Assembly (NCBI GenBank): GCA_019054805.1
Contig: JAHQIY010000008.1
Span: forward strand, 3,891,501-3,955,500
Length of the DNA stretch: 64,000 nucleotides
Source of the DNA: Brachionus manjavacas
Taxonomy: Eukaryota > Rotifera > Eurotatoria > Ploima > Brachionidae
Direction: 5' to 3'
The notes under the pieces: model-generated
What the model was told of the DNA's origin: nothing
The model's database searches: none
Seen by the model: the letters and a program-made list of their open reading frames with translations, nothing else
Position numbers and translations under genes: made by a program
In this document: in pieces, positions 14,248 to 63,618 of the stretch
Numbering within the stretch: the stretch's first letter is position 1
Layout of the letters: every line of letters begins with the position of its first letter

Positions 14248-14931
14248 ATGAAGAGAACAATTTTTATTTTTATACTAATACAAACTTTAAATGGAAATAA
14301 TATTTTAAAGCCAATGCGGTTTGATCCTCCATCTAGAGTTGATATCGAATTAAAAAATGTAACTGAACTCAACGATGCTGAAAAAATGTTAGCCGGACTT
14401 CCATATAACGCAAATAACATTTATCTTGCAAATGGAAGAATTTATGCGAAACAAATGTGCAAAAAATACAACAGCATGGATCCACTAGATGACCGAGATC
14501 AAGTTTTAAAAGAACTTCTAGGAACGCATTCCAAAGGAAACTATATTGAACCGCCATTTTATTGTGATTACGGATCTAACATTCATCTTGGTGAAAATGT
14601 CTACATGAATCATGGATGCATATTGCTAGATGTAAATGAAATTAAAATTGGAAAAAACACATTTTTGGGCCCAAATGTTCAAATTTATACAGCTGGTCAT
14701 CCAACAGATCCAATTCTAAGGCGAAAAACCGAGTTTGGAAAGGCAATCACGATTGGCTGTGATACCTGGATAGGTGGTAGCGCAATAATTTTGCCAGGTA
14801 TAACTATAGGAGATGGAGTAACAATCGGTGCCGGTAGTGTAGTAACCAAAAATATTGAATCGTTTACTGTAGCAGTAGGAAATCCAGCAAGAGTGATCAA
14901 AAGATTAAATTTCACAAATTTGAATGATTAA
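14248..14931 (+). CDS. Maltose/galactoside O-acetyltransferase-like protein (left-handed beta-helix), bacterial type
   Basis: A 227-residue single-exon protein of the Maa/LacA/NodL family, which transfers acetyl from acetyl-CoA to a sugar hydroxyl. The N-terminal Mac domain (EKMLAGLPYNANN), the hexapeptide-repeat core (IHLGENVYMNHGCILLDV), the catalytic His in YTAGHP (H151) and the CoA-side signature WIGGSAIILPGITIGDG then VTIGAGSVVTKNI are all present. Bacterial members are about 185 residues. The extra roughly 40 residues are N-terminal and begin with a hydrophobic MKRTIFIFILIQTLNG, possibly a signal peptide. This family is typical of bacteria and fungi and unusual in animals, so horizontal transfer is plausible. 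Flanking tRNA-Ile genes and animal genes argue against simple contamination. The physiological acceptor sugar is unknown. Confidence 0.9.
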   Translation: MKRTIFIFILIQTLNGNNILKPMRFDPPSRVDIELKNVTELNDAEKMLAGLPYNANNIYLANGRIYAKQMCKKYNSMDPLDDRDQVLKELLGTHSKGNYIEPPFYCDYGSNIHLGENVYMNHGCILLDVNEIKIGKNTFLGPNVQIYTAGHPTDPILRRKTEFGKAITIGCDTWIGGSAIILPGITIGDGVTIGAGSVVTKNIESFTVAVGNPARVIKRLNFTNLND

Positions 14932-46670: not shown

Positions 46671-49600
46671 ATGATGATAAAACTATTTAAAAAATTATAT
46701 GTTGTTATTTTGAGCTTGACAACAATCAGCATTATCATCTATCTCACTTTAATTGCAACCGAATTAGAAAATTTTGAGGTAACAAATATATTGACATTTT
46801 TTTAATTTTCAAAAATATTTTTTTTCTTGTAGTCACAGCGAGAAATTTTAATCGAAAATGAACTGATATATGGAGACAATTATGATGAAAAGTATTATAA
46901 CAGATCTTTTGATGGCTTCAATGAATTTTATATAAAAAACCTGAAGAAAACTTATGATTGTAATTATCTTATAATTATTTAATAGAAAAAAAAAACTTGC
47001 CTTGCAAAAAAATTTGACTATTACGAAAGGATGATAAAAATTAAATATTTAATACTAAAAGATAAATTTTGATAATCAACACTGAATTTTTTTATAAGCA
47101 ACTGCAGGATTGGAAATTGGAAACAAATTGAGTGTTAGTTTTCTTTATGTTTTATTATTTCATGGTTCTTATAAAAATGGCCGAAATACATGAAAATTTT
47201 TTTGAAAAAAATAATGATAGCAAATTTGGTAAATTTTATAGCAATCGAATCACAACTGAAGATTATTCCACTATTAAGTTATTAGAAAAAAGCGTAATAT
47301 TATTGAATGAAATATTACTATTTCATTCACTTATGATATTTGATAATGCTTAAGGAATATCAATGCTATTAAGACTTTAAATTTAAATATCAAAAGGTAC
47401 TTCAATCATACCATCTAGACACTTACACACGGAAATCCTCATAAACACCTTATGTCTTCTATCAAAAAAACATAAAATAATTGTCATTCTAGGCAAAACT
47501 TAGAAAAGACTTTTTTTTTAGAAAAAAATTTTTTAAAACGAAACTTTAAAAGACTTTGAAAAGCCTTAAAATTACTTTGTTTTCTGACTTTTGAGCAGCT
47601 CTGTTATTTATTTATCTAATCTAATTGGCAAGTTTAAAAAAAATTAAATAGCTAATTTGTATAGAAAAATAAGAGATATAATTTAAGTTGAGAAAAAAAT
47701 GGGCGATCAGTATTTTGAGGAACGAAAAATAGCGAATAATACTCCAATTATTATTTGGTGGACTCCATTTACCATGGACATGGGCTCGTACAAAGAATGT
47801 AGAAATATTAAAAAAACATGTTTTTTTACCAATATTCGAAGGTACAGATCTCAATCAAATTATAAAGCATTCTTGTTCTACGGAACTGATTTTTCTTTGT
47901 ACGATTTACCTTTGCCGCGACTTGATCTCGAAGATTGGGGTTTGCTCCATGAAGAATCTCCGAAGAACAACTACTTGTTTTCATTCGAAAAAATAATGAG
48001 TCTTTTTAATCATACGGCGACGTTTAAACGAGAATCAGATTTGCCCCTACTTACCCAATACCTAACGAGCATTGAAGACTTAGAAAGCACGGAATTCTTA
48101 GTTCCAGTCAAGGAAAAAAATCTTTTTCAAGTGGAAGAAAATCTGGCCATGATCGCCTACATACAATCTGATTGTAACACACCATCGGACCGAGATATTT
48201 ATGTGAAAGCTTTGATGAAATACATTAAAGTTGATTCTTATGGAAAATGTCTTCACAATAAAGATTTGCCAAAAAAGTATCTACACAATTATGAACAATT
48301 ACCATAAATTCACGGTTTTGTAAAATTATTTTTTTCAATAAAATTTACGAGCAGGAATGGGTTATAAATAACAAGTGAGGTAATTATTAAGAAAAATTGA
48401 TTGACACATTAATTTTTAAATAATATATATAAAATACATATAATAATGGATTTAAGAATATAAATATATTATTACTAGTTTTCGATTTAAATTTAAGATT
48501 TTTTAAATAAATGTACTAAGATTTCACATTTCCATTTAAATGGCGAATTTTAGAGCATGAAAAATAAAAATCAAAAAACTCAAAAAATAATTTCTGACAA
48601 TTCAAAGTTGCAAACCCAATTTTTTGATTTTTCTTCCTTATGGCTTAAGATTCATAATGCCAAAAAACTCAAAAGCAAAGATTCTTTTAAAAATTAAAAA
48701 TTTTTCAAATTTCTAAAAAGATGTTTAAATTTTAATCAAAATATTGTGATGTGAGGACTTATCATCTTTATTAAAAGAAACAAAAATTTAAATCGAAAAA
48801 TGGTTATAATAAATTAGACATTTTTTAATTTTTGCATCGAAATGCCAAAAAAAATTTTTAAATTACAATTTGTGAGAAAGGATATTTCAGTTTTTATTTT
48901 TGTATTGTAAATTTTGTACTAAATTTTAATATTGCTTTACATTTTTTTTTTATTTCAATTGTAAACTTTGTCACAATTTTTTGATTTTATCAGTATTTTT
49001 TTTTAATTTGTTGCATCAACTGTATTCACAATACCCTTTATTTTTTAATTATAAATATAAGGATGATTTGCCCTAATGTTTACATAATCATCAAGTTAAA
49101 AGTAATAAAGTAATGCATTATCAAGTTTTAAATAAAAAATTTGTTATGCAATGTGATATTTTAGTACAAAAATTACAGTACAAAAAGTAAAAACTTAATA
49201 ATTTGTTTTCTAATTGTGCAAAAAAGGTTCTGTAAATAGTAAAATGTTGTTCTAAGCTCTGCAAAAACTCTGCAATTTATTAAAAATTTTAATCAAATAT
49301 ATTTTGATGGTGTGCATTTCACAGAAAATTGCAGAGTTTTTGCAGAGCTTAGAATTCGTTTGTACAAATTTTTACCATATTGTACTGTTTACAGAACCTT
49401 TTTGCACAATTAGAAAAAAAATAATAAAGTTTTTACTTTTTGTACTAAAATTTCACATTGCCAATTAGTCAAAATGTAGGTTATAGAAAAAATTAGTTCC
49501 GATTAAATTTATTAATTAATATATTTTTTTAATTTATTTATGGTCAAAACCGAGAAGACTCATAATCAGAGTTGATCGAACGCCAAAGTCATGTCTGAAG

Positions 49601-50967
49601 TTAGTCTTTTTTCAAGTCAAATCAAAACTTTGACTCTTTTTGTAAAAACAATTGATTAATTTCGATAAAAATTGTAGTGGAGTGAAGTTTTTTACATGAA
49701 TTGATTAGTTACGAGAATCAATTAAAAAATAATTCAAATTTTTTTCTTAATTCAATGAAAAAAAAGAGTGACAAAATGAGAAAAAAATAAATCAGTTTGT
49801 TTTTTATTAAAATTTTATTGACAATAAAAGGATTTTTATTATATAAATTAAAAAAAAAGGCGAGAAAAATATATAAAAATAAATCACTATTCTTAAGTTT
49901 ATTTCAGACTCTGTATAATCTTTGTTCAATATTAATACGAGTAAATTCAATTTTTTTGTAAATATTTTTTATTGAATTACATTATTAACTAATTCGATTT
50001 TTTAAAATCACCTCAAAACTTCACTACAGTTAAATTTTTTTTAAAATTCATTTTTTCAAAATTCTTTTATTTAACTAAACTTAAATTTCAAATTTTAAAA
50101 CTTCAAGTCTGACTTTGACTTTTGTCCAACTTTGCCCATGATGTTTATTCTTGTTTTATTTATTTAATTTTTAGCTTAAATCAAGCGGTTGTGAGCATGA
50201 ATTCAAAAGAATTTTATAAGATTATTGCCAAATATAAATTTGTATTCGCAATGGAAAATGCAGTGTGTGATGATTATGTGTAAGTTTAGACCTAAAAAAT
50301 CAAAATCACTAATAATTAGAATTAAAAAAGAACAGAAAAACTTTGGCGCTCTTTCTACATTGGATCAGTGCCTATTGTATATGGATCGTCAAAGTCAAAA
50401 GAAATATACCCCGATATTGACACTGCAATAGATATTCTTGATTTTAAGTCGCCCAAAGAATTGGCTCAATATTTATTAGAGTTGAACCATAATGATACAA
50501 AATATGAGAATTATTTGCGATTCAAAAGAAAAAATGGCGTGCAAAATCCTATACTAAAGGAATTAATGTCCAGGCGTAAATGGGGTATAGACAATGATCG
50601 TGAAAAAGGTTCTTATATTGACCATTTCGAATGCCTTGTTTGTGAAAGAATTCATGAAAATTTGAAGCGAACTAAAAATGGTGAAGCTAAGGTGTCATGG
50701 CAGGCGAATAAACAGCATTTTGGATGTCCTCCGCCTTTTACATTTAGTGAAGAAGGAATTTTATTGAATCAACCAAACAATTCAGATTATGCACCAAACA
50801 ATTTTTTGACAAGCTATCAATTTGGCTATATCCAGCAAAAAATCTTCTTGGATAAATATTATAACAAAAATTTTACCAATTTAACTTACAAGACATTACA
50901 CTTAGAAACATTAAAATATCACAAAGAACTATTTATTACTGGTAACAATAAAATTGATTTAAAGTAG
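46671..50967 (+). CDS. GT10 fucosyltransferase, FUT10/FUT11 (POFUT3/4) type
   Basis: An alpha-fucosyltransferase of the FUT10/FUT11 branch, an ER/Golgi type II membrane enzyme using GDP-fucose. The main exon (about 47699-48276) encodes PIIIWWTPFT, FLFYGTDFSLYDLPLPR, WGLLHEESPKNNYLFS and YIQSDCNTPSDRDIYVKALM then KYIKVDSYGKCLHNKDLP. A 1.9-kb intron follows. Exon 50175-50279 encodes the donor-binding start YKFVFAMENAVCDDYV, and exon 50331-50967 continues TEKLWRSFYIGSVPIVYGSS to the Cys-containing FECLVCERIHENLKR tail and the stop. Phases 2 and 2 match. Upstream exons 46671-46778 (MMIKLFKKLYVVILSLTTIS, a signal-anchor) and 46833-46959 are likely the N-terminus. Their link to the main exon is unresolved and may use another exon near 47130-47350. 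The catalytic part looks intact. Confidence 0.9.
49147..49461. mobile_element. Foldback MITE in the fucosyltransferase intron
   Basis: A 315-bp near-palindrome. The left arm (GCAATGTGATATTTTAGTAC ... TCTAATTGTGCAAAAAAGGTT ... AAGCTCTGCAAAAACTCTGC) is repeated inverted in the right arm up to GTCAATG-type sequence at 49455-49461. Arms are about 130-150 bp with a central AT-rich spacer. No coding sequence. No target duplication fixed. Confidence 0.75.
49567..50134. mobile_element. hAT-like MITE with CAGAGTTG end in the fucosyltransferase intron
   Basis: Left CAGAGTTGATCGAACGCCAA AGTCA and right CAAAGTTGGACAAAAGTCAA AGTCA (read inward) are imperfect inverted ends, followed by AAGTC-rich sub-termini. 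The flanking octamers CTCATAAT and CCCATGAT match at 6 of 8 positions, fitting an old 8-bp hAT duplication. Related ends occur at 1025-1075, 13445-13508 and 47560-47605. Confidence 0.55.
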
Positions 50968-51650: not shown

Positions 51651-52135
51651 GAAAACTTGTCACATTACTTTTACCAGAGTTGGTTTAATTTCATTATCAT
51701 CAAAATTTAATTATCAACTCTTGAGTCAATTTGTTTGCAAAAGAAAAATTCTAAACAGCTTCGGTGTTAATTCATTAAAAATTGGTTATTTTTATTTTCA
51801 TTTTTCCGATTTAATGTTTTATTTTAATAAATAAAATATTAAAATTTAATTTATTCATTTAATATTTTTATTTAGATATCTCATAGCTAAAATAAATCTA
51901 ATTAAGGAAATGAAAGATTGTAGTTCAAAATCTTTGAAATGGGTTTAAAAATATGATGAAAATATTGATAATCAAACTTGATTTCACTAATTTGCATGTT
52001 TGTATTCTTAAAACATTGAAAATCTTTTCTAAAATGAGATAAGAAAGATATCTTCATGGGAATATTCTTTGGAGGATAAAAAAAGGGAAAATGGTGCATA
52101 ACAAATGATGTTCGATTGGTGTCATGTACATCGTC

Positions 52136-52182
52136 GGTGGTCGGTAAATCGAATAAAATAATTATTCGATTTACCGACCACC
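52136..52182. repeat. Perfect 21-bp hairpin inside the GT92 reading frame
   Basis: Arms 52136-52156 and 52162-52182 are perfectly complementary around a 5-nt AATAA loop. The insertion lies where the GT92 C-terminal GKS...HDT segment is expected and changes the reading frame. The form fits a template-switch inverted duplication; a sequencing or assembly artefact is possible. Confidence 0.85.
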
Positions 52183-53432
52183 AGGAAAAATCTACAATAA
52201 CTGCAGTTTTCAAGTTTCTTAAATTCCGGATTTTTTCCTAAAAAATTTTCATATTCTTTATAAATTGACACTAGTCTTTTGGCGTACTGAAATTCTTGAT
52301 TGTTAACAATGCTGATATTAAAATAATTTTCGGGACAATTCCTTAGTCCATTATTATAATCATTTATTTGAAAACTGAGCGCTTTCCCATTGAACTCTTT
52401 AACGTTGTCAATTTAAACCTCCAACTGTTTAAATAATTTGGGCAAAAAGTCATTTTTAAAATATAAAGCCATTTTGAAACTAACAGTGTCATTATTTTTT
52501 AAGTTCGCAAGATTTTTTGCATAATCTAAAAAATTTCCAAGATTTCTGTAAAAGTTTTGATTTTGAAACTCTTTGCCTGCTTTGAATTGGCCCAGGTCGA
52601 GGTCTTTATTATGTCTTGGGATAATAACTTCATCCTGATCTGCTATCATAACATTTTGGTAATCATTTTGATATCGTAGATAGCAGTCGTTAAAAGAATA
52701 CAAATCGTAAAGGTATCGTTGTTGGCTTGAAAAACCAAAAGAGTAAAAGTAGCTATAATTGCCAAAAGTTGAACTTGAATTTCGAAAGCCCATCATAGGA
52801 AGACATTGCATTTGAACCACTTCAATGTAATTTTCATATTTTTTAAAAAGATCGTGATAAATACTTCCTGTTCCAATAGAACCATTGTAGAAAACAATTT
52901 TGTCAACTCCAACAAGCTTGTTGATTTGAAACCACCATTCGAAGTCTGTTAAAATTTCATTAGAAAAGCTATATACCTTACTGCACAGAATTAATCTTTT
53001 ACTCGGCTTATTTTTATTTCTAAAAATTTTGGTTATAGGCTCAATTTTTTCAGAATGAGTCAATTTTTGTAATGAATTAATTTCTAAATATTTAATCTTC
53101 TCGTTTTCTGGAAAAATAAAATCTTTAATTTCTATGTATCCATAAGCAGCTTTTTCTCCCACAAACAATTGTTTGTACGATATATGCCGATTTTCTATCT
53201 TTGATTTTGCATTATAAGTATCATCATGATCTGACACCTTATAAATTTCAATCTCTTTTGTAAAATTTGAATCAAGATGTTTGATCAAAAAGAGTCTAAT
53301 AACTTTTATATCCTGATAGTAGAATAGAAGATTTCTTTTAAAAAAAATCTTGTTGTTAAAATAAATCTATTCCAAATCACATTCGTTTCGATTCAATTTT
53401 TCGTTTGAAATTCTTGTTATTAGTTTCTTTGG

Positions 53433-56035
53433 GCTCTTTAATATCTAGGCCATAAATTTAGAATAAAATACCCCAAATTTAAAATTTTTTACCCCAATTT
53501 TTTAATAAAATACCCCTTTTAATTAAGTAAACCATAAAAAATTAAGATTTACACCTAATTAAATAAGATGTTACTTTTTCTTTTATTTTGACACTAAATC
53601 AATTAAAACTACACCTAATTAATTAAAACGAACTCTAGTTTATTAAAATGAAACCTAAATTTTTTGACACTTTTTTAATAAATATTTAAAAAATATTCCT
53701 ATATAAGAAATTCAGCTTGCTAAAATGTGTATTGATTATTATTAAATGTCTAGTTCTGCGAGTATTTTAGAAAATAATTTCAACGACACCTTAAATGACG
53801 CTGAAGAATTGCCGAAAATAAAAAGAAGCGTATCTAAAGCGTACGATTTCCTTGAAGATTGTGAATCTTTAATGGAATTTAAAAAATTGGTCAAAAATTT
53901 ACATTTTGACAATGTAGCATGGAACTTTCATTCAAAAAATAACCTAGCCGATTGCGATAAACATACATTCAACTGCAAATTCAACAAAAAAGGCTGCAAA
54001 AAATCAATTTATTTCAAAGTCAAAAATGGTGAAATTGGTGGTTCAGTCTATATATCAGACAATGAACATTCAAATCATTCGAACGAAGAAAATTCAGCTA
54101 ATGTTCCTCCTAAAGTGAAAGAAAAAATTATTTATTTTCGTTCGCTTGGACAAGCAAAAAAAGAAATCAAGAGAAATTTAATCAAAGAAAATATTCAGCC
54201 ACCAACTGACAATCAAATTCAACATATTATAAATTCAGTTAGTAAGGACTTAAATAAAAATTGTTCATTGACAGATTTCAAAAAATGGTGCGAAGATAAT
54301 TCAGAGATTCCAGACGATGAAGACGCGGTTTTCGTTGGGAAATTTGAATATGCTGCCATGCCATCACAAATTTTTCGAGTGTTTTTAACATCAAAACGTT
54401 TAATTAAAATCGCAGAAAATGCTCAACATTTTTTGAGTGATGCTACGTACAAGTTAACATATGAAAATTTTCCAATTATTACAGGTGGTACAACTGATCG
54501 TAATAAAAGTTTTCATCCGTTCGGATTAGCTATATGTCGTACTGAAAATGAAGATGATTTCGGTTTTTTTTTCAACTCAGTCAAAGAAACACATGAAAAA
54601 GTATTTAACAAAACAGTTAATTTTTCAATTTTAATAGCAGATAATGCTGGTGCTATCACAAACGGATTTGCAAAAGTATTCGATTTAAAAACAAGAGTAA
54701 ATTGTTGGGCTCACGTCAATCGTAATATTGATATTCGTGTAAAATCAATTAGCAAATTACAAGCAGAACGAATTGTCTACGATATAAGCGAAATTCAAAA
54801 AATTTTTGAGCCAGAATTATTTCCAAGAGCTCTTAAATTATTTCAAGAAAAATGGTCAAGAGTCAATAGTCCAGCCATCAAAACATTTTTAGAGTATTTC
54901 GATAATCAATGGTGCAAAGATGGAAATAATGGTTGGTATGAAGGCTTTGCACCTGGTTTACCAAGTACAAGCAATTCATTAGAGTCAACTCATGCTCAAA
55001 TCAAGAAAATTTTAAATTCAAAACGTTTTGGTTTGATTCCATTTCTAAACGAATGTCGAGATAATATTTTGAAAGAATGGTCAACTGAACGTGCACCTAC
55101 ATTATCATTGATTGATCCAGAAACAAATCAGCCTCAAATCGTTGACAACTTAAATCAAAAAATATTTTATGAATTTCCAAATGTTACAAAGGATGACTTA
55201 GTAAAAGCTTATAAATGGAACAGTTATAACAAAACAATTATTCATTTGAAAGATGATAATTATTATTATTTAACTGCTGATGACAAGATAGATATCAACA
55301 AAGAACAATGTAAACAATACAATCAGTCATTAATTGAAAAAATGGTTTTCATTCGATCATATGATTACTTCCATTTTTAGTATTCGTAAAATTAAATTCA
55401 ATGAAAATAGTTGGACTTTGAGTAGTTGCAATTGTTGGTATTGGTTAAAAAATTACAAATGTTATCATCTTACAACTATTGCAGCAAGAAAAAAATGCAA
55501 TTTCGACTCAGTTGGTATGGATATACCTATACAAGCCAATAGAAAGAAAGGAAGGCCAAAAGACACAGCTGGACCACTTGAACATCAACCGAAAGAAACA
55601 CAAGCAACAAATTCGGCACCTAAAGGGATTGATACAGATGATGAAGATTCGAGTTCGACAAAAGAAAATCCATCAAAAATACCTCGAATTGATTCAATCA
55701 AACAAGTCGAAGAAAAGTTTTGTGATAAATGTGGCGCTAAAATGACTAAAAGAAGATATTGGGCTTGCTCAAATAAATGTGGAAAAAAGTAAATTTTTGG
55801 GGTAAGTATGCTCTGAATTCGACTAAATTTTTGGGGTTAAAAATAATAAAATAGTTCATTTTTATTAATTTTGGTATTTTTATAATTAATTTGGTGTCGA
55901 TTATAAAATAAAATTGTCATTTTATTTTTTTAATTTCTTTTTTATTTTTTGGTGTTATCTTAATAAAATAGGGGTAAAAAATTAAAAATTTGGGGTATTT
56001 TATTCAAAATTTGGGGTAATAAAACTAAAAAAGTC
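53433..56035 (+). mobile_element. Complete MULE (Mutator-like element) with 10-bp target duplication
   Basis: The 2603-bp element is flanked by exact GTTTCTTTGG copies (53423-53432 and 56036-56045); 9-11 bp is the MULE norm. Terminal inverted repeats are imperfect over the first about 28 bases, then strong (GAATAAAATACCCCAAATTT in both, read inward) with repeated TACCCC units. Inside is one transposase gene on the plus strand, opposite to the interrupted GT92 gene. A second copy starts at the left edge of the window. Confidence 0.9.
53746..55792 (+). CDS. MULE transposase (DDE), frameshifted before the SWIM finger
   Basis: A cut-and-paste transposase. The first frame (53746-55380, 544 codons) holds an N-terminal FLYWCH/GCM-like zinc site (C77, C84, H108, H111). 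The MULE DDE triad follows: D232 in LSDATYKLTYENFPII, D299 in LIADNAGA and E413 in NSLESTHAQIKK, with the CW.H motif VNCWAHVNRN between. It stops after YDYFHF. The frame then continues in another phase from about 55370 (IRKIKFNENSW) with the SWIM finger CNCWYWLKNYKCYH, a basic RKKGRPK stretch and a C-terminal four-Cys ribbon (CDKCG ... CSNKC) ending at 55792. A single-base frameshift is the simplest reading. All catalytic residues are present. Confidence 0.88.
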
Positions 56036-56135
56036 GTTTCTTTGGTTCACTAATGATATTAGGCAATTGTATTTTAATTTCAAAAAAAACAACTAAAAGA
56101 CAAGATATCAAAAACAGCTTGAAAATATTTTCCAT

Positions 56136-57119
56136 ACTAAAAAGTAATAAAAGGAAAACCTTAAAAAAATATAATTAATTGATTAAAAAATTTATTAAAT
56201 GATATAAAATAAATTTAATTTTTGCTTACGAATATTTTACCTAATAAACAAAACCTCTAAAAAAATAAAATAATAAAAAAAATGTAAATTATAAACTTAT
56301 CATGGTAATATATTTTTCGCAATCAATATAATTCCCTTTTCAAGATCAATTTCGGGTTTAAAGATATCCTAAAAAATTTTAACATTGAAAACCATAATAT
56401 TTCTGATATTGAATATCATAATAAAAATATTCTCAAAAGCTTGAGTGACTTAAACAACAATGTAAGATCGTTTCAAAATTTGGTCTCGAATTTGAAAAAT
56501 CTTTGCTAATTCTGAATTAATAAAATTTTTTGAAGAAGTTTTAAAAATTACGAGTGGAAATTATTAAGTATTAATCTTTTAAAATCGTAATTGAGAATAT
56601 TCACTAAATTCTAAAATTTAAAAAAATAGACTTGTTTTATGCAATGAAATAAATTTTTTAATTAGATTCATTATGTTTATAAAAATAAAATATCATTAGT
56701 GAATCAAAATACAAATTTATTTTTTCATTTTATTTTATATTGTATTATTTATTTTATTTTTAAATTTTTTTCTAAATTCACTGTTTTTTAGAAATATATT
56801 TTTTAATAAAAAATTTAGAATGAGAGGATTTGAATTACTGTATTATTTTTTTAATAAAATTCAGAATTAAATTAAAGGTTAAATTGAATTTATCAATTTT
56901 GTTCATAAATTCAGAGGAAAATAAAATTTTTTTAAATTTTCAGTCATTACAATTTTAAATAGTTTCTTGAGTCTTACTAAAAAAAAACAAATTTAAGAAA
57001 TTAATTTTTAATTAAAAATCAAAAATGGAATTCAATTTTTTATTTATTTGTATAATTAAATATTGAAAAATTTGAGGAAAAATTTTAATTAAGCAATTAA
57101 CAAAATATTTCAATTACAG
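56136..57119. other. Upstream flank of the GT92 pseudogene
   Basis: AT-rich sequence without recognised feature; should include the former GT92 promoter. Confidence 0.5.
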
Positions 57120-59185: not shown

Positions 59186-61200
59186 AAGATAACCATCTTT
59201 GAGACAGACTTTTCAACTGATATCTTCATTTTCCATTTAATAAGTCATTGTTCTAGTTCGTTGGTGTATTTATTTATCTTATTTTCTAGGTTCCCTTTCT
59301 TGTTATAAATGAAGAATGTAACTAGATCATCTGCGAAAAGCAGAGAGTATTCATTATTTGTTTTGTTTCTTTTTGGGATGTCATTAATATAAATACTAAA
59401 TAAAAGAGGACTTATTACTGAGCCTTGAGGATCAACTTCAGTTACTTGATATTCGTCGCTCAAGTGGTCATTCACATTTACCTTAAATGTCCTACTATCA
59501 AAAAATCTAATCCAGTTAGTCAAGTAATGAGGTGGATTCATTTTAATCAATTTAAAAAGTAGACCTTCATGCCAAACCCTATCAAAGGCTTTAGAAATAT
59601 CAAAAAAAAGGCCACAAACTCTTTTTTTTCTATTAAATGATTCCACAATTTTTTGAATTAAAAATAAAAGATTATCTGATGTTCGCCGGTGTTTCCTAAA
59701 TCCAGATTGCTCCTGGATAAGGAGTGAATTTTGTTCCAAATAATTGTATAATCTTGAAAATACTATGCGTTCCAGGAGCTTTCCTAAACAACTCGTTATA
59801 CTAATTGGTCTATAATTTAAAGGATCTTGTAAATTAGAGGCCTTTTTTTGAATCATTGTAATGTTCGAAGTTTTCCACGCTTTCGGGACCTTACCTTCTC
59901 TAAGAGATAAATTATAAAGTTCTGTGATTTCTATTAATGAATTTCTAGGTAAGTTTTTTAGCATTAAATTATGTATTTGGTCAGGTCCTGATGCCGCTTC
60001 ATTTTTCAATCTTTTTAATGCCATAATTAATTCATTTAAGCAAATTGGATCATTAAAATTACACTGATCATAATTTCTAAAAAATTCAGAGTTAGAATTA
60101 AGTATTTCGAAATTTTTCTTAGTATCAATTAATCAGAATTAGGACTAAATATTGAAGATAAGAGTTCTCCAAAGCATTTTCCCTTTTCTTCATTAGTTTT
60201 GAATTCCTTGTCATTTAAAAACAAATTTGGGATTAAATTTGATCCTTTTTTTGATCTAAATTTATTAATTTTTTTCCAAAAAAGTCTACTTGTAAGTGGA
60301 TTTTTTCTCATCTTCTTGATAAAATCAAACCAATTTTGATTCCAGAATTTTTTTAAAGAGGCCTTTATCTCGAATTTAAGTTGATAATATTTTTGCTTGA
60401 GCTTTTGAAAGCAAATTTTTTGAAAGGTTCTTCTTACTTTCCTGCTTTCTTTTATCAGAATAACAATGTTCGGGGGAAGACTGGTTTTGTAGATTTTCTG
60501 AGAAAGATAAGGAATGCTTTTATGAGAAGCAGAAATGATTTTTTCTAGAATTTTATCATTTAGTTGATCTATAGTGATGGAACTTTCAGGGAAAATAACT
60601 ATTTAGGAATTTAAGATCTCGCTAAATAATTGCCAGTTGGCTTTCTTATAGTTAAACTTTTTAGCTGCTGATTTATTTTCTAATTGAAAGCCCATAGAAA
60701 TCGATGCTTCGATTGGGAAATGGTCACTAGTCATTTCTTGACTATTTAGGACACAATCTTTATATTTTGTCTATCTTTATATTTAATTCGAACATCATTA
60801 AAGAAGGTTTCAAGTCTATGATTCTCGAAATCAGAGGGCAAGAAGTGAAATCGAAAAGTACAATACCTTCTGAGATCCGGGACTTTATTTGCATCTTCAA
60901 GTCTGAAAATGGTTCCATTGATATTGTTGTCACGATCGAAAACTTTGGCAAAATTAAAAGCAGCATTAAACTCTATTATCCAAACTTTGTTTGAAGAGAA
61001 ATTGTAGATACTTGTGATCGCATCATTTTCCACTTGGTTCAGGACGACATCAAGTGCACTAAATAAGACTTTATGGCTAATCGGTTTGTCTAACCTCTTC
61101 AAGTTTAGCTTGACCGAATTTTTAAATATCCACCGTCGGTTTTGGTTTGTTTTGTTGAGCGACATTGCCAACACACAACTTTCAACGGTTTTAAAATCAC
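59186..61200 (-). mobile_element. LINE family A, internally deleted copy (ORF1 plus ORF2 RT)
   Basis: On the minus strand, 61174-60746 encodes an ORF1-like protein (MLAMSLNKTNQNRRWIFKNS; an RRM-like VWIIEFNAAFNFAKVFDRDN region). It is joined abruptly to the last part of the ORF2 endonuclease (EMTSDHFPIEASISMG), then linker and RT: KNEAASGPDQIHNLML, YRPISITSCLGKLLERIVFS, GFRKHRRTSDNLLFLIQ, FFDISKAFDRVWHEG and SLLFADDLVTFF (catalytic FADD kept). Stops occur at 60600, 60131 and 59247 (TGA where the sister copy has TGG), and GVPQGS is changed to VDPQGS. The 3' end is cut at about 59186. The start of the endonuclease is missing, so it is dead. Confidence 0.85.
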
Positions 61201-62157: not shown

Positions 62158-63618
62158 AATTAATGTCTGCTACTGGAACGCATAGTATATTCAAGATTAT
62201 ACAATTTTTTAGAGCAAAATTCACTCCTTATCCAGGAGCAGTCTGGATTTAGGAAACACCGGCGAACAGCAGATAATCTTTTCTTCTTAATTCAAAAAAT
62301 TGTGGAATCATTTAATAGAAAAAAAAGAGTTTGCGGCCTTTTTTTTGATATTTCTAAAGCCTTTGATAGGGTTTGGCATGAAGGTTTACTTTTTAAATTG
62401 ATTAAAATAAATCCACCTCATTACTTGACTAACTGGATAAAATCCTTTTTAGACTCTAGGACATTTAAGGTAAATGTGAATGACCATTTGAGCGAAGAAT
62501 ATCAAATAACTGCAGGTGTTCCTCAAGGCTCAGTAATTAGTCCTCTTTTATTTAGTATATACATTAATGACATCCCTAAAAGAAACAAAACAAATAATGA
62601 ATACTCTCTGCTTTTTGCAGGTGATCTAGTTACATTCTTCATTTATAACAAAAAAGGGAACCTAGAAAATAAGATCAATAAATACCTCAACGAATTAGAA
62701 CAATGGCTTATTAAGTGGAAAATGAAGATATCGGTTGAAAAGTCGTGTTCATTAGTCTTTTCTAGGTACAAAAAAGAGAGTGATAATCTTAACTTAAAAA
62801 TTTATGGAAACAGAATAGAGAGACAAAAAGAAATCAAGTTTCTTGGTATTAAATTTGATTCTAAATTAAACTTTAATATACTGGTAGATGAAATTAAAGA
62901 GCGCTGCAATAAAAGGCTAAATATTATTAAGATATTGTCAAACAAAAAATGGGGTCTTAATCAGAACACACTAGGAAATCTATATAAATCTTTAGTCGGA
63001 TCAATTTTAGACTTTTCTTTTCCTTGCTTGAATTCATTTTCAGAAAATAATATCAAAAAACTACAAGCAATTCAGAATACAGCAGTCAGATCTATTCTTA
63101 AGTTAAAATATGATACTCCCTCCAACATCGTACATCATGAGGCTTTTAATAAACTAAAATTACTAACAGTCTCGAATCGGCTTTTTGAATTGAGTGAGAG
63201 ATATGTTGGGGCAGGACTGAGTCATTCTATTCCATTGGTTGTAAGACTGGTGAAGGAATACAAAGAAGGTTTCGAATCAAGATATATTGACTACCCAACT
63301 CCATTGTGTAATTGCTACCTTACTATTTCTTCTTTTTTTCCTGAAACTTGAACTATTTAAACATGAGCCACATGTAACAATCTTTTCCAATTTTATATAT
63401 TCTTAATTTTCATTTATTTAGCTTATTTACTTTTTTTTTAATTCTTTTTTTTTTTTTTTTTATCTTATTTAATTAACTTTAATTTTATTTTTATTTTATT
63501 TTATTTCATTTTTATTTTATTTTTTTTAATTTTTAACTTATTCTGAAGGAGCTCTAGCTCGGTACAGAAAACAATTTAAAAAAAAAAAAAAATTTAAAAT
63601 TTAAAAAAAATTAATGTC
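62158..63618 (+). mobile_element. LINE family A, 5'-truncated copy with target duplication
   Basis: The insertion spans 62168-63608 between 10-bp direct repeats AATTAATGTC (62158-62167, 63609-63618). It starts in ORF2 at LLERIVYSRLYNFLEQ and reads open through GFRKHRRTADNLFFLIQ, FFDISKAFDRVWHEG, TAGVPQGSVISPLLFS, the F.GD box, IKFLGIKFDSKLNFN and the C-terminal QAIQNTAVRSILKLKYDTPS to the stop at 63351. The 3' UTR ends TTATTCTGAAGGAGCTCTAG and an A-tail. The catalytic box is FAGD instead of FADD (GGT at 62620-62622). Near identity with 59245-60024 shows a common, fairly recent source. Confidence 0.9.

Follow-up and report, generated by a model that had tools for sequence, protein, structure and literature searches.

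A MULE DNA transposon inserted into a GT92 gene raises the question of whether the insertion destroyed a working gene or entered one that was already decaying. We addressed this question in the window, meaning the whole stretch of 64,000 nucleotides of Brachionus manjavacas DNA that was analysed, and in the genome assembly to which it belongs. We consider it highly probable that a recently spread MULE family inserted a copy into a GT92 gene, within its N-terminal part, and that this gene had by then most likely become a pseudogene.

The MULE element and its family in the genome

Positions are those of the window.

53432 to 56035, plus strand: MULE DNA transposon, 2604 bp, GGCTCTTTAATAT...ACTAAAAAAGTC (GGCTC...AGTC), with copies in the same genome
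53423 to 53431: left 9-bp target-site duplication GTTTCTTTG, from copy comparison
56036 to 56044: right 9-bp target-site duplication GTTTCTTTG, from copy comparison
53454 to 53501, plus strand: left inverted-repeat core, 48 nt, 92% complementary to the right core
55965 to 56012, minus strand: right inverted-repeat core, pairing with 53454 to 53501
53746 to 55380, plus strand: transposase ORF, 544 aa, with the MULE domain PF10551 at residues 231-327
55334 to 55792, plus strand: second transposase ORF, read in the next frame, which continues the first and carries a CxC...CxH pattern; it overlaps the 544-aa ORF

The preliminary description had placed a MULE of 2603 bp between exact 10-bp direct repeats. 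That a MULE lies between direct repeats was confirmed by its inverted ends, in which a weaker extension of the terminal inverted repeats continues beyond the 48-nt core, and by the transposase domain, since the PF10551 match reaches 32.1 bits against a cut-off of 27.6 (E = 1.6e-7). Both sizes had to be corrected. The 10-mer GTTTCTTTGG occurs exactly twice on the plus strand of the window, at 53423-53432 and 56036-56045, but the duplication proper is one base shorter: among the 18 loci examined (L001-L018), all 17 copies with both ends are flanked by a perfect 9-bp duplication, L014 being devoid of a right end and the short derivative L019 having been left out. All 17 begin with GGCTC, so the window element spans 53432-56035 and measures 2604 bp, which leaves the net sequence of the joined flanks unaffected. 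The tenth base matches by chance, as G is both the next base of the target and the first base of the element. The 9-bp duplications have an A+T content of 84%, compared with 74% for the initial 1000 bases of these loci, a region that includes element sequence at some of them. No empty site of the window copy was found in its own genome with the right flank (56036-56400) as the only query, which matched itself only. The MULE insertion at 53432-56035 is real, clean and recent.

The genome contains at least 14 near-full copies, the window copy included (40 of 220 candidates scored), and the same search returned internally altered copies as well as more distant relatives, the latter mostly showing 66-84%. 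A protein search for MULEs, in which 80 of 751 candidates were scored, gave at least 82 matches, and the MULE population is hence large and diverse. Across the 14 near-full copies there are only seven substitution columns in 36,397 bases (six singletons and one shared), a count that leaves out the missing right end of L014. The window copy carries no private substitution and equals the majority save for run lengths. This near-identity suggests that the family spread very recently, that is, recent activity only.

Joined flanks of the other 16 two-ended copies were used to search the genome for empty sites. Contiguous empty relatives were found for three of them (L002, L005 and L006) and for none of the remaining 13 among the 40 of 270 candidates scored. 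Two empty sites for L002 contain the duplicated sequence once and agree with the joined flanks at every one of the 131 bases spanning the junction; a third aligned empty site shows two mismatches and one gap, and a fourth is a diverged match for L005. The contiguous places listed number eight for L005 (87-94%) and one for L006 (84%). These empty relatives of sister-copy sites show that the family inserts with a 9-bp duplication. The DDE transposase would insert the element through a 9-bp staggered cut, and filling in of this cut by the host would give rise to the target-site duplication. Two further copies, L017 (401-1706) and L018 (401-1707), share the same internal deletion, measure 1306 and 1307 bp and possess different 9-bp duplications, so that either the deleted non-autonomous form itself moved or the deletion arose twice. 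The insertion, the empty sites of sister copies and the deletion derivatives can all be seen in one assembly, which makes this 114-Mb eukaryotic genome a clean case of a young burst of MULEs.

The two parts of the transposase lie in different frames. The CxC...CxH pattern of the second part resembles a SWIM finger. Pfam detected no zinc finger in the window ORFs, gave no match of any kind for ORF 55334-55792 by itself and found no finger in a 411-aa ORF of copy L005 within which the pattern lies; in the diverged relative L028, a SWIM match lies just below the cut-off (E = 8.6e-4, 19.2 bits against 19.6). The frame break falls on an A-run, which counts 6, 7 or 8 A across the 14 copies. An intron joining the two ORFs was considered and rejected, since the relatives L027 and L028 read through this place without one and, where the A-run is longer (copies L005, L008 and L011), the frame stays open past it.

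The run at which the frame is interrupted varies from copy to copy, and the 14 copies differ in 24 indel columns, mostly at single-base runs of at least three, against the seven substitution columns. Run-length indels in excess of substitutions are the pattern of residual long-read assembly error. The frame differences between copies point to such error, with real slippage being possible. If the breaks were instead real, the copies would be non-autonomous and moved in trans by another member. This would agree with the finding that none of the 14 near-full copies (0/14) has a single open frame through both transposase parts and with the deletion derivatives at two loci with different duplications; it is, however, opposed by the error-like excess of indels and by the scatter of the breaks over different runs, and we regard it as doubtful. 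Far less credible still is that the family is transposing today, with a full transposase carrying the SWIM-like finger made only by slippage on the A-run that precedes this finger or from copies whose run length is in frame. If this were true, the length of the A-run would be a switch on transposition.

Elsewhere in the window, ORFs 59245-60024 and 62302-63351 lie on opposite strands and contain near-identical stretches, the latter matching the reverse transcriptase PF00078. ORF 14248-14931 encodes maltose-acetyltransferase and hexapeptide-repeat domains behind a signal-like N-terminus; the enzyme is of bacterial type and a candidate for horizontal transfer. One contig of the same assembly (C21, 1,221,242 bp; locus L051, 1-10000) is bacterial-type with dense ORFs and a COX1 match, and its gene cluster presumably comprises quinol-oxidase genes, the names other than COX1 being our assumption. 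Its 661-aa subunit shows at most 58% identity to any of the 80 bacterial loci retained out of 216. This contig is possibly a contaminant or symbiont contig.

The GT92 relic and its probable start

51905 to 53422, minus strand: rest of the GT92 relic, with stem, catalytic domain and a C-terminal part in a shifted frame
56046 to 56135, minus strand: probable start of the relic, ATG and hydrophobic stretch, 30 codons, not significant by sequence alone
53367 to 53369, minus strand: nonsense codon TAG, at a position that is Trp in all five aligned paralogs
52413 to 52415, minus strand: nonsense codon TAA within the relic
52136 to 52182: perfect inverted duplication with 21-bp arms and a 5-nt spacer, at which the frame shifts

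The assignment of the host to GT92 was borne out by a Pfam match and by alignments to paralogs encoded in the same genome. ORF 53288-52413 on the minus strand matches PF01697 (E = 3.5e-11, 43.6 bits, cut-off 23) over profile positions 1-123 of 249. A GT92 search of the genome lists 14 matches including the query; seven paralogs are open over 453-595 aa, but in the paralog L038 the N-terminal part is in another frame. With the paralog L030, the 317-aa open piece of the relic aligns at 37% over 336 columns (E = 2.7e-64), the 96-aa piece that follows at 44% and the C-terminal shifted-frame piece at 51%. Pfam gave no match for either C-terminal piece alone, nor for the paralog L036. Two fucosyltransferase GT10 ORF matches are located beside the relic at 47699-50967, an N-terminal part at 47699-48307 and a C-terminal part at 50368-50967.

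The two nonsense codons reported previously exist, and a further lesion is the frameshift at 52136-52182. Together with the insertion, these leave the window GT92 without an intact coding frame, that is, as a relic. The inverted duplication sits between the codons for FFLVVG and VHDTN, and the region comprises 61 nt against 48 nt in L030, a net gain of 13 nt. A mobile-element origin was rejected because no other match of the duplication was found in the genome. One of its arms encodes residues of the gene itself (VVGKS, where L030 has IIGNS), which makes an inverted templated copy, as in a template-switch mutation, the simplest reading. Judged from one relic and one diverged paralog, the duplication is probably such a mutation.

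The claim that the pre-insertion gene structure can be read directly held as well, and the flanks join in phase into an open frame. The 90 nt from the ATG at 56135 to 56046 and the 144 nt from 53432 to 53289 are in the same phase, as had been calculated, and the joined frame has no stop from ATG 56135 to 53370. Placing the GT92 start at this ATG was sustained in part: phase, position and a hydrophobic stretch, which GT92 paralogs of the same genome also have at the N-terminus, speak for it, whereas significant similarity to the paralogs is lacking. Protein comparison, a check that had been proposed, matched the catalytic part with GT92 but gave no significant match for the 30 right-flank codons.

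In a comparison with nine frames, the best paralog match of these 30 codons has an E of 0.16. The joined N-terminal piece reaches E = 0.035 with L039, though at a position that does not correspond. In the nearest paralog, L030, no ATG precedes the hydrophobic stretch. Were the right flank not part of the gene, the element would lie near the original 5' end and ATG 56135 would be a chance occurrence. Of 20,000 flank shuffles, 6.1% are open for 30 codons. The poor paralog match would fit a chance ATG, and so would the 2.4% of shuffles with an open ATG placed 20 codons or more upstream. Only 0.9%, however, combine such an ATG with a membrane-like stretch; the hydrophobic stretch sits at the expected place, and the 30-codon piece aligns N-terminus to N-terminus with L036 (19 aa, 37%). 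We consider a chance ATG unlikely. Based on phase, hydrophobic stretch and position, the right flank is likely the original GT92 start.

Order of decay and insertion

The window MULE equals the copy majority, yet the relic has accumulated two nonsense codons and a frameshift, which indicates that decay most likely came first. We compared the two nonsense changes, arising in about 67 effective nonsense sites within 444 codons, with the 0 private substitutions in the 2604 bp of the element in a likelihood test, which assumes equal neutral rates in relic and element, a chosen transition weight of 2 and the copy majority as the state of the element at insertion, and which rests on the two nonsense codons with the frameshift left out. 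The maximum joint log likelihood is -1.3 with free times, -5.7 if one nonsense codon came after the insertion and -8.7 if all came after it. Nonsense codons before the insertion are thus favoured over all-after by a likelihood ratio of about 1600.

The opposite order, in which the GT92 gene still worked when the MULE hit it and acquired its nonsense codons and frameshift later, would explain why the joined site keeps its phase and an open frame and why the 317-aa stretch from one nonsense codon to the other has stayed open. It would, however, have to reconcile two nonsense changes in so few effective sites with an element free of private substitutions, and the log likelihoods above weigh against it; we therefore regard this order as quite improbable. 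The GT92 gene would thus have decayed before the MULE entered it, and the insertion probably did not kill the gene. The preliminary description had the insertion interrupt the GT92 frame and used it to date the gene loss relative to the two nonsense codons, an order that is probably reversed; that the insertion broke a working gene is not supported. An insertion inside a gene need not be what killed the gene.

Comparison with known systems

Some MULE families are devoid of terminal inverted repeats. Animal MULEs listed in Table 1 of PMC6446971 include Phantom, Curupira and Spectre, and target-site duplications of MULEs are given there as 8-11 bp. The window element resembles these animal MULEs in its MULE DDE domain, its inverted ends and its 9-bp duplication, which falls within this range (PMC6446971). 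The words 'rotifer' and 'Brachionus' do not occur in the main text of PMC6446971, and the available text of PMC6555955 contains no occurrence of MULE or Mutator.

The GT92 of the window is like family PF01697 in the homology of its catalytic domain and probably in its N-terminal hydrophobic stretch, but differs from the family in its disruption by the insertion, the frameshift and the two nonsense codons. The duplication at 52136-52182 resembles the template-switch mutations at inverted repeats described in PMC8604942 in that the second arm repeats the adjacent sequence exactly in inverted orientation, and differs in that it is judged from one relic and one diverged paralog. The window MULE belongs to a known superfamily, is young and multi-copy, and lies inside a pseudogene.
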